In this document: piece after piece, positions 2,268 through 35,103 of the stretch
How the letters are laid out: the number at the start of each line of letters is the position of its first letter
How positions within the stretch are numbered: the stretch's first letter is position 1
NCBI GenBank assembly: GCA_951812655.1
Contig: OX638319.1
Location: 434,001 to 498,000, forward strand
Length of the DNA: 64,000 nt
Origin: an uncultured Candidatus Nitrosopumilus sp.
GTDB lineage: Archaea; Thermoproteota; Nitrososphaeria; Nitrososphaerales; Nitrosopumilaceae
Direction: 5' to 3'
Program-made: the position numbers and the translations under genes
The notes under the pieces: model-generated
The model's database searches: none
Seen by the model: only the letters and a program-made list of their open reading frames with translations
What the model was told of the DNA's origin: nothing

Positions 2268-3284
2268 ATGGTTGACGAGAAAGCAGAGAAGAAGAAGGTT
2301 GTCGCATTGCTCTCAGGAGGTCTAGATAGCCAGCTTGCAGTTAGAATGATGCAGGAGCAGGGTTTCGATGTGTCAGCTGTTGCAATAAAAACCCCCTTTT
2401 GTGATTTTGACTGTGGAAGGGGATGTGGATTTGAAATTAGAGAAAGAGCAGATGATCTAGATGTAAATTTGAAAACAGTTTATCTTGGTGACGAATATAT
2501 CGAGATGTTAAAACATCCTAAACATGGAATTGGTGCAGGCTTTAATCCATGTGTCGATTGCAGGACTATGATGTTTGATGCAGCAAAAAAGCACATGGAT
2601 GAAATAGGTGCAGAATTTATTATTTCAGGAGAGGTATTAGGACAACGTCCAATGAGTCAACATGCACCATCATTACACATTATTGAAAAAGAATCAAACT
2701 TGAAGGGGAAAATTGTCAGACCCTTATCAGCTGGATTATTGCCGCCAACAGATGCAGAAAAAGATGGTTTGATCAAAAGAGAAAATCTCGGTATGATTAA
2801 AGGTAGAACACGACGAACTCAACTACAAATGGCAAAAGAATATGGAATTGAAAACCCTCCAAATGCAGGAGGTGGTTGTTTACTTACAGAACCACAATTT
2901 GGAATTAAAGCTAAAGATTTGTTTGATCATATTGAAACTCCAACTATAAATGAAATTGATTTATTAAAGATTGGAAGACATTTTAGATTAGATGAGGAAA
3001 CAAAATTTGTCGTTGGAAGAAACAAAGATGAAAATGAGATGATCAAGGCATTGGCATTACCAGAAGATGTTCTACTTGAAGCGAGAGATCATGTAGGACC
3101 AGTTTCAATTTTACGCGGTAAAAATGCAAAATCTCATGTAGATTTTGCTTCATCAGTCACCTTAAGATATTCCGATGCGCCCTCAATGGGTCAAAGCGTT
3201 GTTTCAATTAAAAATGGGGATTCAACGAGTGAGGTTAGTGCAGAATGTGCTGAAGAGCAATCTTATGTCAAATTTCGAATGTAG
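2268..3284 (+). CDS. PP-loop tRNA thiolation-type protein (ThiI/MnmA-related)
   Basis: A 338-residue PP-loop ATPase. The adenylation motif SGGLDSQLAV is at residues 16-25, so it should activate a substrate with ATP as in tRNA sulfur-transfer enzymes. Cysteines lie in CDFDCGRGCG, in CVDC (about residues 87-90) and in GGGCLL; the last two are candidates for catalytic or metal-binding roles. Archaeal proteins of this kind are often annotated as tRNA 2-thiouridylase-like or ThiI-like without THUMP domain. The modified base cannot be decided from sequence. Start ATG follows a short leader and is divergent to the M24 peptidase. Confidence 0.75.
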   Translation: MVDEKAEKKKVVALLSGGLDSQLAVRMMQEQGFDVSAVAIKTPFCDFDCGRGCGFEIRERADDLDVNLKTVYLGDEYIEMLKHPKHGIGAGFNPCVDCRTMMFDAAKKHMDEIGAEFIISGEVLGQRPMSQHAPSLHIIEKESNLKGKIVRPLSAGLLPPTDAEKDGLIKRENLGMIKGRTRRTQLQMAKEYGIENPPNAGGGCLLTEPQFGIKAKDLFDHIETPTINEIDLLKIGRHFRLDEETKFVVGRNKDENEMIKALALPEDVLLEARDHVGPVSILRGKNAKSHVDFASSVTLRYSDAPSMGQSVVSIKNGDSTSEVSAECAEEQSYVKFRM

Positions 3285-3357
3285 GCGTGGAATTTCTAAA
3301 AAGGCAGTTCAAACTAAGGAAGAGTTTTTGAGGAAGTAGATATTATTTTCAATAAGA

Positions 3358-30186: not shown

Positions 30187-30444
30187 GTGCCTACAGCATA
30201 TGTTCTATTGAATTCTGATCTTGGATCAGATGAATCTATCATCGACGAAGCTAAACAAATTCTTGCTAGCGAAGAGATCAAATTCGAGGTTCAAGGAGTT
30301 TATGGAGTATATGACATTATCTTGAAATTATCTTCCAGTGATGCAGAAAATCTTCGATCCGTCATTACCAACAAAATTAGAAAAATTAGTAAAATTCAAT
30401 CTACCCTAACCATGATGGTAATTGAAGAACAAGAAAATCTATAG
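30187..30444 (+). CDS. Stand-alone Lrp/AsnC ligand-binding (RAM) domain protein
   Basis: An 85-residue protein consisting only of the RAM domain of Lrp/AsnC regulators, with no helix-turn-helix. The pattern PTAYVLLNSDLGSDESIIDE and VQGVYGVYDIILKLSSSD is typical, and the ending TLTMMVIEEQ matches the last strand. Such proteins bind small effectors (often amino acids) and can form octamers with full Lrp regulators. GTG at 30187 is the start; the overlapping ATG at 30185 is in another frame. It converges on the aminotransferase gene with a 6-base overlap. Confidence 0.8.
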   Translation: MPTAYVLLNSDLGSDESIIDEAKQILASEEIKFEVQGVYGVYDIILKLSSSDAENLRSVITNKIRKISKIQSTLTMMVIEEQENL

Positions 30445-32222: not shown

Positions 32223-32244
32223 AAAACATGTAGCGATCAAAATT

Positions 32245-32257
32245 ATAACGGTGTTAT
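32245..32257 (+). promoter_or_regulatory. Palindromic site 1a upstream of the first ferredoxin gene
   Basis: ATAACGGTGTTAT is a palindrome with arms ATAAC and GTTAT around three bases. Its core AACGGTGTT recurs upstream of the second ferredoxin gene. It lies 20 bases upstream of site 1b and about 50 bases before the TATA box. Candidate operator. Confidence 0.4.
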
Positions 32258-32264
32258 GAAAACT

Positions 32265-32277
32265 GAAACGCCGTTAT
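32265..32277 (+). promoter_or_regulatory. Palindromic site 1b upstream of the first ferredoxin gene
   Basis: AACGCCGTT (32267-32275) inside a longer half-symmetric stretch. Its first base is exactly 24 bases before the CAGGGAAG block (32291) preceding the TATA box, the same distance as in the second ferredoxin promoter. Candidate operator. Confidence 0.4.
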
Positions 32278-32290
32278 AACAATGAATTTG

Positions 32291-32307
32291 CAGGGAAGTT
32301 ATATAAA
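32291..32307 (+). promoter_or_regulatory. Conserved promoter block of the first ferredoxin gene
   Basis: CAGGGAAGTTATATAAA contains a GA-rich element like a TFB-recognition element followed by a TATA box, about 31 bases before the ATG at 32333. The first 15 bases are identical to the block before the second ferredoxin gene at 32731. Confidence 0.6.
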
Positions 32308-32332
32308 GATCAAAATCGTTAAAAATTTTGTT

Positions 32333-32632
32333 ATGCCAGTAGCAATACTTCCAGACATCAGTGAACAAATGTGTATCGGATGCGCACTATGTGTAGAAAT
32401 CTGTACAACACTTGGTCCAGATGTCCTTAGAGTAAAACCAGTTGAAGGCTGGAAGAGAGGTAAAGCATTCGTGTTTTATCCAGAGAGATGTATTACTGAT
32501 GGTGCATGCATAGGTGTATGCCCAACAAAAGCAATCTTTTGGATGAGACCAATGGACTTTACCGTTGGACAACCAGTTCCACTCCACAAAGATTCAGTCT
32601 TCGTCAAAGGTTGGACCGAATTAGTCGATTAG
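32333..32632 (+). CDS. Ferredoxin with two iron-sulfur sites, copy 1
   Basis: A 99-residue electron carrier. Motif 1 is CIGCALCVEIC (C-x2-C-x2-C-x3-C). Motif 2 is CITDGACIGVCP, i.e. C-x2-D-x2-C-x3-CP with Asp replacing the second Cys, as in ferredoxins with a [3Fe-4S] or Asp-ligated [4Fe-4S] cluster. It differs from the copy at 32770 in only a handful of residues (VAILP/VGIIP, T/S, HKD/YKN). The start at 32333 is used because upstream residues are not conserved in copy 2. Likely redox partner of oxidoreductases; specific partner unknown. Confidence 0.9.
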   Translation: MPVAILPDISEQMCIGCALCVEICTTLGPDVLRVKPVEGWKRGKAFVFYPERCITDGACIGVCPTKAIFWMRPMDFTVGQPVPLHKDSVFVKGWTELVD

Positions 32633-32704
32633 ATTAGTTCATTCAATTTTAATTTCTTTTTATTATTTTAAATTCTTAGGTGTTTTCCACAATATTTAGA
32701 TTTT

Positions 32705-32717
32705 ACAACGGTGTTAT
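32705..32717 (+). promoter_or_regulatory. Palindromic site upstream of the second ferredoxin gene
   Basis: The core AACGGTGTT (32707-32715) is identical to site 1a. It begins exactly 24 bases upstream of the CAGGGAAG block at 32731. Only one such site is present here, against two before copy 1. Confidence 0.4.
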
Positions 32718-32730
32718 GAAATTTTACTTT

Positions 32731-32746
32731 CAGGGAAGTTATATAC
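32731..32746 (+). promoter_or_regulatory. Conserved promoter block of the second ferredoxin gene
   Basis: CAGGGAAGTTATATAC, identical in its first 15 bases to the block before copy 1, with a TATA box about 28 bases before the ATG at 32770. Confidence 0.6.
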
Positions 32747-32769
32747 TGTCAAAACCATAAGAAATACAT

Positions 32770-33069
32770 ATGCCAGTAGGAATAATTCCAGACATCAGTG
32801 AACAAATGTGTATCGGATGCGCACTATGTGTAGAAATCTGTACAACACTTGGTCCAGATGTCCTTAGAGTAAAACCAGTTGAAGGCTGGAAGAGAGGTAA
32901 AGCATTCGTGTTTTATCCAGAGAGATGTATTTCTGATGGTGCATGCATAGGTGTATGCCCAACAAAAGCAATCTTTTGGATGAGACCAATGGACTTTACC
33001 GTTGGACAACCAGTTCCATTATACAAGAATTCAGTCTTCGTCAAAGGTTGGACCGAATTAGTCGATTAG
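32770..33069 (+). CDS. Ferredoxin with two iron-sulfur sites, copy 2
   Basis: A 99-residue near-copy of the preceding ferredoxin, with the same CIGCALCVEIC motif and CISDGACIGVCP (Asp replacing one Cys). DNA identity is very high over the coding region and into the first 30 bases after the stop, showing a recent tandem duplication or ongoing gene conversion. Substitutions cluster at the two ends of the protein. It has its own promoter rather than being read through from copy 1, since a separate TATA box is present. Confidence 0.9.
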   Translation: MPVGIIPDISEQMCIGCALCVEICTTLGPDVLRVKPVEGWKRGKAFVFYPERCISDGACIGVCPTKAIFWMRPMDFTVGQPVPLYKNSVFVKGWTELVD

Positions 33070-33085
33070 ATTAGTTCATTCAATT

Positions 33086-33244
33086 TTAATTTCTTTTGAT
33101 CATTGAGTTTTTAGTCCTAGAGTTTGCATCTGGAATTTTAGGTTTTTTCTTAATCCAATACAAAATGATGATGATGATTATATCAGGAACAAAAATCATT
33201 AATTCATAATAAATTGTAAGTCTTTGAGCTGGTTTTGCATACAA
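33086..33244 (-). CDS. Possible small membrane protein
   Basis: A TTG-started frame of 52 codons encoding one strongly hydrophobic helix (IFVPDIIIIIILYWI) flanked by a basic tail KKKPKIPDANSRTK. An in-frame stop lies two codons upstream. Its 3' end overlaps sequence shared with the ferredoxin duplication. It may be real, or a decayed remnant: a different frame just upstream also reads protein-like (NIVPTGIILWIDN). Weakly supported. Confidence 0.25.
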   Translation of the reverse strand: MYAKPAQRLTIYYELMIFVPDIIIIIILYWIKKKPKIPDANSRTKNSMIKRN

Positions 33245-33339: not shown

Positions 33340-35103
33340 ATGAAAGTATTGATCTCATTTAATCTTAGTAAAAAACTCATTTTATTGGTAATGATTGTAT
33401 CAATTATTGCTCTGTCAGTTACAGGATTTCTTAGTTTCAATTATGCTGACCAAATTCTAAAAGAAAGGGCAGGAGATCAGTTGTTGGGAGAATCGACGGT
33501 ACGCGGCGACACCATAAGGCTTCTTTTTGAATCAAGAATAGAGCAGAATAATATTCTCGCAAATGATCCGATGATTCAGTCTTTAGTTTTAAAAATGAAT
33601 GATATTCCAGAAGGTAATCTGGATGGATCAAAGGATCTCAATCGCAGAGACTTCCTGATTCAGGTTCAGGCGTTTCAGGAACTAATCGGATTTTCCATAG
33701 GGTTTGAGGATGTAAAAATAATTGGTAATGGCGGACATGTCTATTTCTCTCTTGGAAGCAATGCGAATGAAAACTTTTTGGGGGATCAACTTTTCGAAAG
33801 AGGACTTCAACAATCGTTCATAGAATTTGAACCCACTGAATCTGGCAAAAAAATGATTGTTGTCTCTCCCGTCTATGCTGATGACAGTAAAAAGGGAGAC
33901 GAACCAATTGGAGTGATAATTTCAAAGATGAGAACGGCTTCGATAGATAGTGTCTTACTGAGCAGAAGCGGGCTTGGAGAAACAGGAGAGGTCTACATAG
34001 TTAACGAGCATCTTCTGATGCTGTCCGAATCCCGATTCTTTGAAAATGCAGTATTCAAACAGAAAGTGGATACGTTAGGGGTTCAGAAATGCTTCGATGA
34101 CGGACAAGAGACCCTAGGATTCTATCCCGATTACAGGGGCATTCCAATCTATGGTTCATCATACTGTGCAAAAGATCTGGGAATTGTTTTATTGGCAGAG
34201 ATTGACAAAGCAGAGGTAGAAAAACCAATAAACGTTTTACAAAATAGAATCCTTCTAACTGGGATCGTAATCACCATAGGAATGGGAATTACTACTTTTG
34301 CAATATCAAAATCTATCTCAAAACCACTAATAAAATTAAAAAATGCAGCAAATAAAATTTCAGATGGAAATTTTGATGTTAGAACCGACATAAAGACCGG
34401 AGATGAGATCGGAGAACTTTCACATGCATTTGATTCAATGGCACAAAAGCTTCAAGAATCATTGATTGAGATTAGAAAGAAAGAAGAGGTAATCAAACAA
34501 CTCAAAGGAGACATGTTGTTAAAATTTTCTCAGCATGAACAAAATGATTGTGTAGGAGTTATCGATATGACAGATTCCACAAGAATATCATCAAAATTAT
34601 CAAATGAAGATGTTAGCAAAATGTATGAGATCTTTTTAAATTTCATGGCAAAAATCGTTCACAAACACAATGGTGAGGTAGTAAAAAACATCGGAGATGC
34701 TTTGATGTTTAGATTTGCAAACGTAGACTCAAATGACCCAGTTGCAATGAAAAACGTTTTAGAATGTTGCTTATCTATGATTGACTCTCATGATGAATTA
34801 AAAAAAGAACTCAATGCAGAAAAAATACCTGGTTTAGATTACAAAATCAGTGCGACGTATGGGGAGGTAAAAGTAGCAGAAAGTACGACTTCTAATACTT
34901 CAGATATTTTTGGACCCACGGTTAATAGATGTTTTAAAATTAATTCACTTTGTCCAAAAAACAGCATAGTTGTTGGAATCAATTTGTATAAAATTTTGAA
35001 AGATTTTCCCGAGTATGAGTTTGTACAATTTTGTTCTATTGAAATAAAGAAAAAATATGATTATAGTATTTTTGAGGTAAAAAGGAAGATAAAAAAATCA
35101 TAA
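33340..35103 (+). CDS. Membrane sensor with HAMP and class III nucleotide cyclase domain
   Basis: A 587-residue signalling protein. It has a membrane helix at about 13-33, an extracytoplasmic sensor domain at about 34-300 (Cache-like), a second helix at about 302-324, a HAMP linker at about 325-378 and a cyclase domain from about 403. The two metal-binding Asp are in VIDMTD (Asp409) and NIGDALMF (Asp453), with Lys449 nearby. The transition-state segment reads VNRCFK, Asn529 but Lys533 where Arg is usual. It should make cAMP or another cyclic nucleotide in response to an external signal. Confidence 0.85.
   Translation: MKVLISFNLSKKLILLVMIVSIIALSVTGFLSFNYADQILKERAGDQLLGESTVRGDTIRLLFESRIEQNNILANDPMIQSLVLKMNDIPEGNLDGSKDLNRRDFLIQVQAFQELIGFSIGFEDVKIIGNGGHVYFSLGSNANENFLGDQLFERGLQQSFIEFEPTESGKKMIVVSPVYADDSKKGDEPIGVIISKMRTASIDSVLLSRSGLGETGEVYIVNEHLLMLSESRFFENAVFKQKVDTLGVQKCFDDGQETLGFYPDYRGIPIYGSSYCAKDLGIVLLAEIDKAEVEKPINVLQNRILLTGIVITIGMGITTFAISKSISKPLIKLKNAANKISDGNFDVRTDIKTGDEIGELSHAFDSMAQKLQESLIEIRKKEEVIKQLKGDMLLKFSQHEQNDCVGVIDMTDSTRISSKLSNEDVSKMYEIFLNFMAKIVHKHNGEVVKNIGDALMFRFANVDSNDPVAMKNVLECCLSMIDSHDELKKELNAEKIPGLDYKISATYGEVKVAESTTSNTSDIFGPTVNRCFKINSLCPKNSIVVGINLYKILKDFPEYEFVQFCSIEIKKKYDYSIFEVKRKIKKS

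Follow-up and report, generated by a model that had tools for sequence, protein, structure and literature searches.

Ferredoxin and suf promoters of ammonia-oxidizing archaea (AOA) share an AAC-N3-GTT palindrome, probably the operator of a common regulator

The window, a stretch of 64,000 nt that corresponds to positions 434001–498000 of the host genome (a single contig of 1.67 Mb), contains two ferredoxin genes in tandem, each preceded by palindromic sequence and a promoter core:

32234–32239, + strand: CGATCA element, 13 nt 5′ of the outermost palindrome; possible second binding site
32245–32257, strand not applicable: distal palindrome of copy 1, ATAACGGTGTTAT, a full 13-mer with core AACGGTGTT at 32247–32255
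32267–32278, strand not applicable: proximal palindrome of copy 1, AACGCCGTTATA, with core AACGCCGTT at 32267–32275
32291–32305, + strand: promoter core of copy 1, CAGGGAAGTTATATA, a BRE-like GGGAAG plus TATA box
32333–32632, + strand: ferredoxin copy 1, ORF of 99 aa with motifs CIGCALCVEIC and CITDGACIGVCP
32705–32717, strand not applicable: single palindrome of copy 2, ACAACGGTGTTAT, with core AACGGTGTT at 32707–32715
32731–32745, + strand: promoter core of copy 2, CAGGGAAGTTATATA, the same block as in copy 1
32770–33069, + strand: ferredoxin copy 2, ORF of 99 aa that duplicates copy 1 in tandem

The two genes share 97% DNA identity over 300 nt, and both products match the Pfam families Fer4 (PF00037) and Fer4_7 (PF12838). 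Their second motif reads CITDGACIGVCP and CISDGACIGVCP in the two copies, with Asp at the second Cys position. An earlier, sequence-only reading of this DNA had drawn attention to this replacement of a cluster Cys; the Asp is present as claimed, but it is unremarkable, because CxxDxxC is found in motif 2 of 86/86 orthologues, and we rejected it as a special trait of these copies. The pattern CxxCxxCxxxC + CxxDxxCxxxCP of the Sulfolobus-type dicluster ferredoxins is present, and the motif-2 stretch matches two such proteins, 1xer and 2vkr, in which one Cys is replaced by Asp. Both proteins are ordinary dicluster ferredoxins.

Among the 80 other records, just one (L003) has ferredoxin copies paired at one locus. 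The adjacent genes of that record (L003:2184-2480 and 3001-3297) have one ferredoxin-1 promoter and one of the ferredoxin-3 type (CATAACAGAGTTATG). Directly 3′ of the ferredoxins in the window (33340–35103) lies a sensor-type nucleotide cyclase with Cache, HAMP and class III cyclase domains, here in an archaeal host. In several genomes, stand-alone proteins of the Lrp ligand-binding type (RAM), which have no DNA-binding domain, are encoded close to a ferredoxin or suf gene (window 30187–30441; L238:1886-2116; L312:1-252; L331:858-1100), an association that could be coincidence.

In both promoters of the window, AAC-N3-GTT begins exactly 24 nt 5′ of the first base of CAGGGAAGTTATATA (32267 and 32291 for copy 1; 32707 and 32731 for copy 2). 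In copy 1 a second AAC-N3-GTT precedes this one by 20 nt (start at 32247), and copy 2 has a single site (32707). The sequence-only reading had described precisely this arrangement, and the coordinates bear it out to the base. Even with two mismatches allowed, CAGGGAAGTTATATA occurs nowhere in the window outside these two promoters (0.13 expected). The bare AAC-N3-GTT is common in the window and at the level of chance (21 seen versus 19.4 expected); only these two have a TATA-like hexamer at this distance on either strand. The full ATAAC-N3-GTTAT occurs in the window at 32245–32257 only. The copy 2 palindrome is similar to copy 1's distal site (95% over 19 nt). The copy 2 promoter looks like that of copy 1 minus about 20 bp between the repeats, with the spacing kept; such a deletion carries no information on the differential expression of the two copies that the sequence-only reading had proposed. 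The genome contains the AACRSYGTTATA form exactly three times, twice within the ferredoxin promoter described here.

We read the promoters of 81 ferredoxin genes from the 80 other records, the nearest being Nitrosopumilus and other marine Thaumarchaeota, together with three from the host genome (84 in total). AAC-N3-GTT is present in all 84, and among the 81 promoters with a callable TATA box, AAC stands 32 nt from TTATAT in 75. Two sites are found in 60 of the 84, separated by 20 bp in 49, 21 bp in 9 and 19 bp in 1. Site, spacing and doubling (59/84 at 19–21 bp) are all conserved in orthologous promoters, the comparison that the earlier reading had named as its check, and are not a product of chance. 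Many of the 84 promoters come from one family, and 28 are left after de-duplication at 80% alike. In these 28, the palindrome and the BRE/TATA carry about 1.3–2.6 bits in most columns and the promoter core has a conserved GG-AA-TTATATTAA consensus, whereas the first eight spacer columns from the site towards TATA hold mostly 0.0–0.9 bits. The palindrome and its distance thus stay fixed as this spacer drifts. Given the fixed spacing in the 84 promoters, the varying spacer and the 20-bp doubling in 49 of the 60 two-site promoters, it is very likely that a sequence-specific regulator recognizes the palindromes. About 51 of the 84 ferredoxin-1 promoters also have CGAT[CA]A 13–15 nt upstream of the first palindrome, and in most relatives CGATC likewise stands before the palindrome of ferredoxin 3; this element is possibly the site of a second factor.

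Pattern searches combined with targeted stretches gave the site counts for the host genome. The exact ATAAC-N3-GTTAT occurs there at five sites (2.0–6.4 expected by chance), of which three lie at Fe–S promoters: those of ferredoxin 1, ferredoxin 3 (C1:294344-294631) and sufB (C1:894803), the first gene of the sufB-sufD-sufS-sufU cluster. Away from such promoters, the full palindrome is at background frequency. The other two (G000:C1:32073 and 970400) were rejected as further targets because they lie inside coding frames, and the ErpA-like gene and the ferritin near them are probably coincidence. Most one-mismatch sites in the host genome are also in coding frames and show no clear extra target. 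Together, 12 complete relatives have 33 exact sites; sufB and ferredoxin 3 account for 22 of them, and the remaining ones that we read lie inside open coding frames, with one exception. That exception (L369; G087:C1:727119) is an exact palindrome surrounded by clustered, non-coding GTATAACTGAGTTATACTGAGTTATA repeats, 5′ of a gene of no assigned identity. We rejected genome-wide avoidance of the site: the counts are lower than in the backwards control, a deficit for which dinucleotide bias can account.

The sufB site extends beyond the host genus. In Nitrosopumilus, the exact site directly follows the TATA box in 29/30 genomes. In f2, f3 and f5, three further families of the same order whose sufB proteins are 71–81% identical, the exact ATAAC-N3-GTTAT is present in 10/10 genomes read, just before the start codon and directly after TATA, within flanking promoter sequence that is not alignable. 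The sufB palindrome ends about 6–8 nt before the ATG, and this end is about 30 nt past the start of the TATA box. Per genome, the probability that any one 60-nt promoter window contains an exact site is about 1–2e-4. We place most weight on the sufB sites of these three families, because many of the ferredoxin promoters come from one family. The sufB site is lost in G088 and G132, which belong to one genus, and degenerate in G003 and G025, and no such sufB site was found in G004, G008 and G095, relatives at order or class level in which these ferredoxins have no close orthologue. In f2 and several f3 genomes, sufC too has exact or near-exact sites, mostly between the TATA box and the start codon; sufC in Nitrosopumilaceae is without the site. 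At ferredoxin 3, AAC is 26 nt upstream of TTTAAATA, a conserved arrangement, and the ferredoxins of f2, f3 and f5 have the same geometry: 26 nt separate GTTTAAATAG from an AAC-N3-GTT or ATC-N3-GTT on its 5′ side. The site is upstream of TATA at the ferredoxins and between TATA and the start codon at the suf genes. The sequence-only reading had proposed a dedicated regulator for the tandem ferredoxins; a regulator remains very likely, but not a dedicated one, since ferredoxin 3, sufB and sufC share the palindrome.

From the sites, their positions and spacing, the target genes and their conservation, we infer binding, a single protein, a sign at each promoter and a signal. We consider it likely that the AAC-N3-GTT sites are operators of one conserved AOA transcription factor that would control an Fe–S regulon, with the ferredoxins activated and sufB-sufD (in some families sufC) repressed. 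At ferredoxin promoters the regulator would bind upstream of the TATA box and activate; at suf promoters it would bind between TATA and the start codon, block the pre-initiation complex and repress. The suf genes that carry the site look leaderless. At most ferredoxin-1 genes, where the doubled sites are 20 bp or two helical turns apart, two dimers would sit on one face of the DNA. In the simplest physiology, the regulator would be active when Fe–S clusters or reducing power suffice, keeping cluster assembly low and the main electron carrier abundant, and would release its sites upon cluster damage or iron shortage.

Opposite signs at ferredoxin and suf genes would follow from site position on the precedent of two archaeal regulators, SurR and OxsR. 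SurR of the Thermococcales, an ArsR-type wHTH protein with CxxC, likewise reads an AAC/GTT trinucleotide palindrome with a 3-nt centre (PMC12162507; PMC8595942), and it activates from upstream of TATA and represses from downstream at redox and electron-carrier genes (PMC12162507). The positions at ferredoxin versus sufB and sufC match this rule, which would assign their signs. The SurR motif is GTT-N3-AAC (or GTT-N3-AAC-N5-GTT), described as unique to Thermococcales (PMC8595942) and opposite in order to the AAC-N3-GTT of all 84 promoters; by motif, SurR itself does not match. Its targets are hydrogenase and sulfur-reduction genes, unlike the suf and ferredoxin genes here. OxsR, a TrmB-family thiol regulator of Haloferax volcanii, activates when its motif is 5′ of BRE/TATA and represses when it is 3′ (PMC9426492), but it differs in its CG-rich motif and in acting on hypochlorite and thiol stress genes rather than suf and ferredoxin. 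Ptr2, a member of the Lrp/AsnC family in Methanocaldococcus jannaschii, activates a ferredoxin gene by helping to recruit TBP, with no suf targets reported in the same article (PMC2894021). As here, its operator is a palindrome upstream of a ferredoxin TATA box, directly before BRE/TATA. The sequence of the Ptr2 site differs from the AAC-N3-GTT palindrome, and the analysis identified no Ptr2 orthologue. In bacteria, SufR and IscR (Rrf2 family) are alike in function, as regulators of Fe–S biogenesis genes; in the passages considered from one SufR article, the cyanobacterial protein represses sufBCDS, and joint ferredoxin activation and suf repression is not described there (PMC7058544).

Instead of a single factor, two regulators might be at work, one reading the symmetric ATAAC-N3-GTTAT at ferredoxin 3, sufB and sufC, and the other reading AAACGNCGTTATA, often doubled, at ferredoxins 1 and 2 of Nitrosopumilaceae. 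The Nitrosopumilaceae ferredoxin-1 sites do show less symmetry, with AAAC or TAAC as the left arm and GTTATA as the right, and their distance to the TATA box is 32 nt as against 26 nt at ferredoxin 3; being 6 nt further upstream, about half a helical turn, they could belong to a second protein. Yet both groups of sites share the AAC-N3-GTT core, copy 1 has a full ATAACGGTGTTAT as its distal site, intermediate forms stand at 26 nt in the ferredoxins of f2, f3 and f5, and three ferredoxin-1 promoters have a 25-nt spacing, so that we regard a division between two proteins as unlikely. Far less probable is an extended core-promoter element for strong transcription, read by a general factor or a TFB paralogue and without regulatory meaning. 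Such an element would account for the fixed distance to BRE/TATA at ferredoxins, which are probably highly expressed; it would not account for the same site downstream of TATA at sufB and sufC, or for the near absence of the exact site from other promoters of the genome. Common descent, by which related promoters would be alike without function, gains from the family bias that reduces 84 promoters to 28, but the unconserved spacer in the same alignment speaks against it and it is already contradicted by the persistence of the sufB site in three other families where the surrounding promoter is unalignable, and we give it hardly any credence. An RNA hairpin or leader, suggested by inverted repeats and by the complementarity of copy 1's two sites to each other, is just as implausible, because the ferredoxin sites are upstream of TATA and hence untranscribed from that promoter, and a leaderless sufB transcript would start at or beyond the palindrome.

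In the search for the protein itself, the Rrf2 family (PF02082, IscR type) gave no match above the curated cut-off in any of 22 genomes, and a weak hit conserved in most AOA reads as a DtxR-like protein, on which grounds Rrf2/IscR was rejected. The only suf-linked wHTH-like gene, directly after sufU (L271:13658-14002; G000:C1:899657-900001), encodes a 115-aa protein with four Cys and a CxxC...CPxxC end, for which no Pfam family above its cut-off and no solved structure match was found. It is conserved in Nitrosopumilaceae and some Nitrososphaeraceae-like genomes, patchy in AOA, and was not found in the site-bearing genomes G067, G070, G081, G092, G111 and G139; we rejected it for this distribution. 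A generic ArsR protein is encoded 5 kb from sufB. The Lrp/AsnC, ArsR, TrmB and DtxR families remain as candidates. Sites of the Lrp family resemble the 5-3-5 palindrome described here.

The suf promoters have other conserved sequence as well. About 20–70 nt 5′ of TATA, the sufB promoters (L159–L188) contain strongly conserved TTAGCT-N2-AGCTATTTAGCT repeats and CCTATTTTTCCTCATG, and the Nitrosopumilaceae sufC promoters (L338–L348) contain a strongly conserved TTAGGATTAGCTAA over the same interval. Their resemblance to DtxR-type iron boxes suggests a separate iron control of suf. A DtxR-like regulator with a cysteine-rich C-terminus adjoins a TrmB-like gene in the host (L365; G000:C1 about 595700), with the same neighbour in G003 (L364), and is a candidate to act at these boxes.

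AOA are abundant nitrifiers, and growth in the ocean can be iron-limited. We found no description of an Fe–S regulon for AOA in the literature searched, which is weak evidence of novelty. More tentatively than the shared operator itself, we suggest that an undescribed class of AOA Fe–S/redox sensor, outside Rrf2/IscR, reads ATAAC-N3-GTTAT and that suf and ferredoxin are switched oppositely by operator position alone. A 13-bp operator with defined targets makes these ideas directly testable: the site, for example the doubled AACGNCGTTATA, is usable as bait for the regulator, and reporters or existing transcriptomes could show whether suf and ferredoxin move oppositely. If true, this would be another archaeal regulator, beside SurR and OxsR, with a sign that depends on where its site lies relative to TATA. 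What the shared ferredoxin and suf site points to is one protein coupling iron–sulfur supply and demand in AOA.
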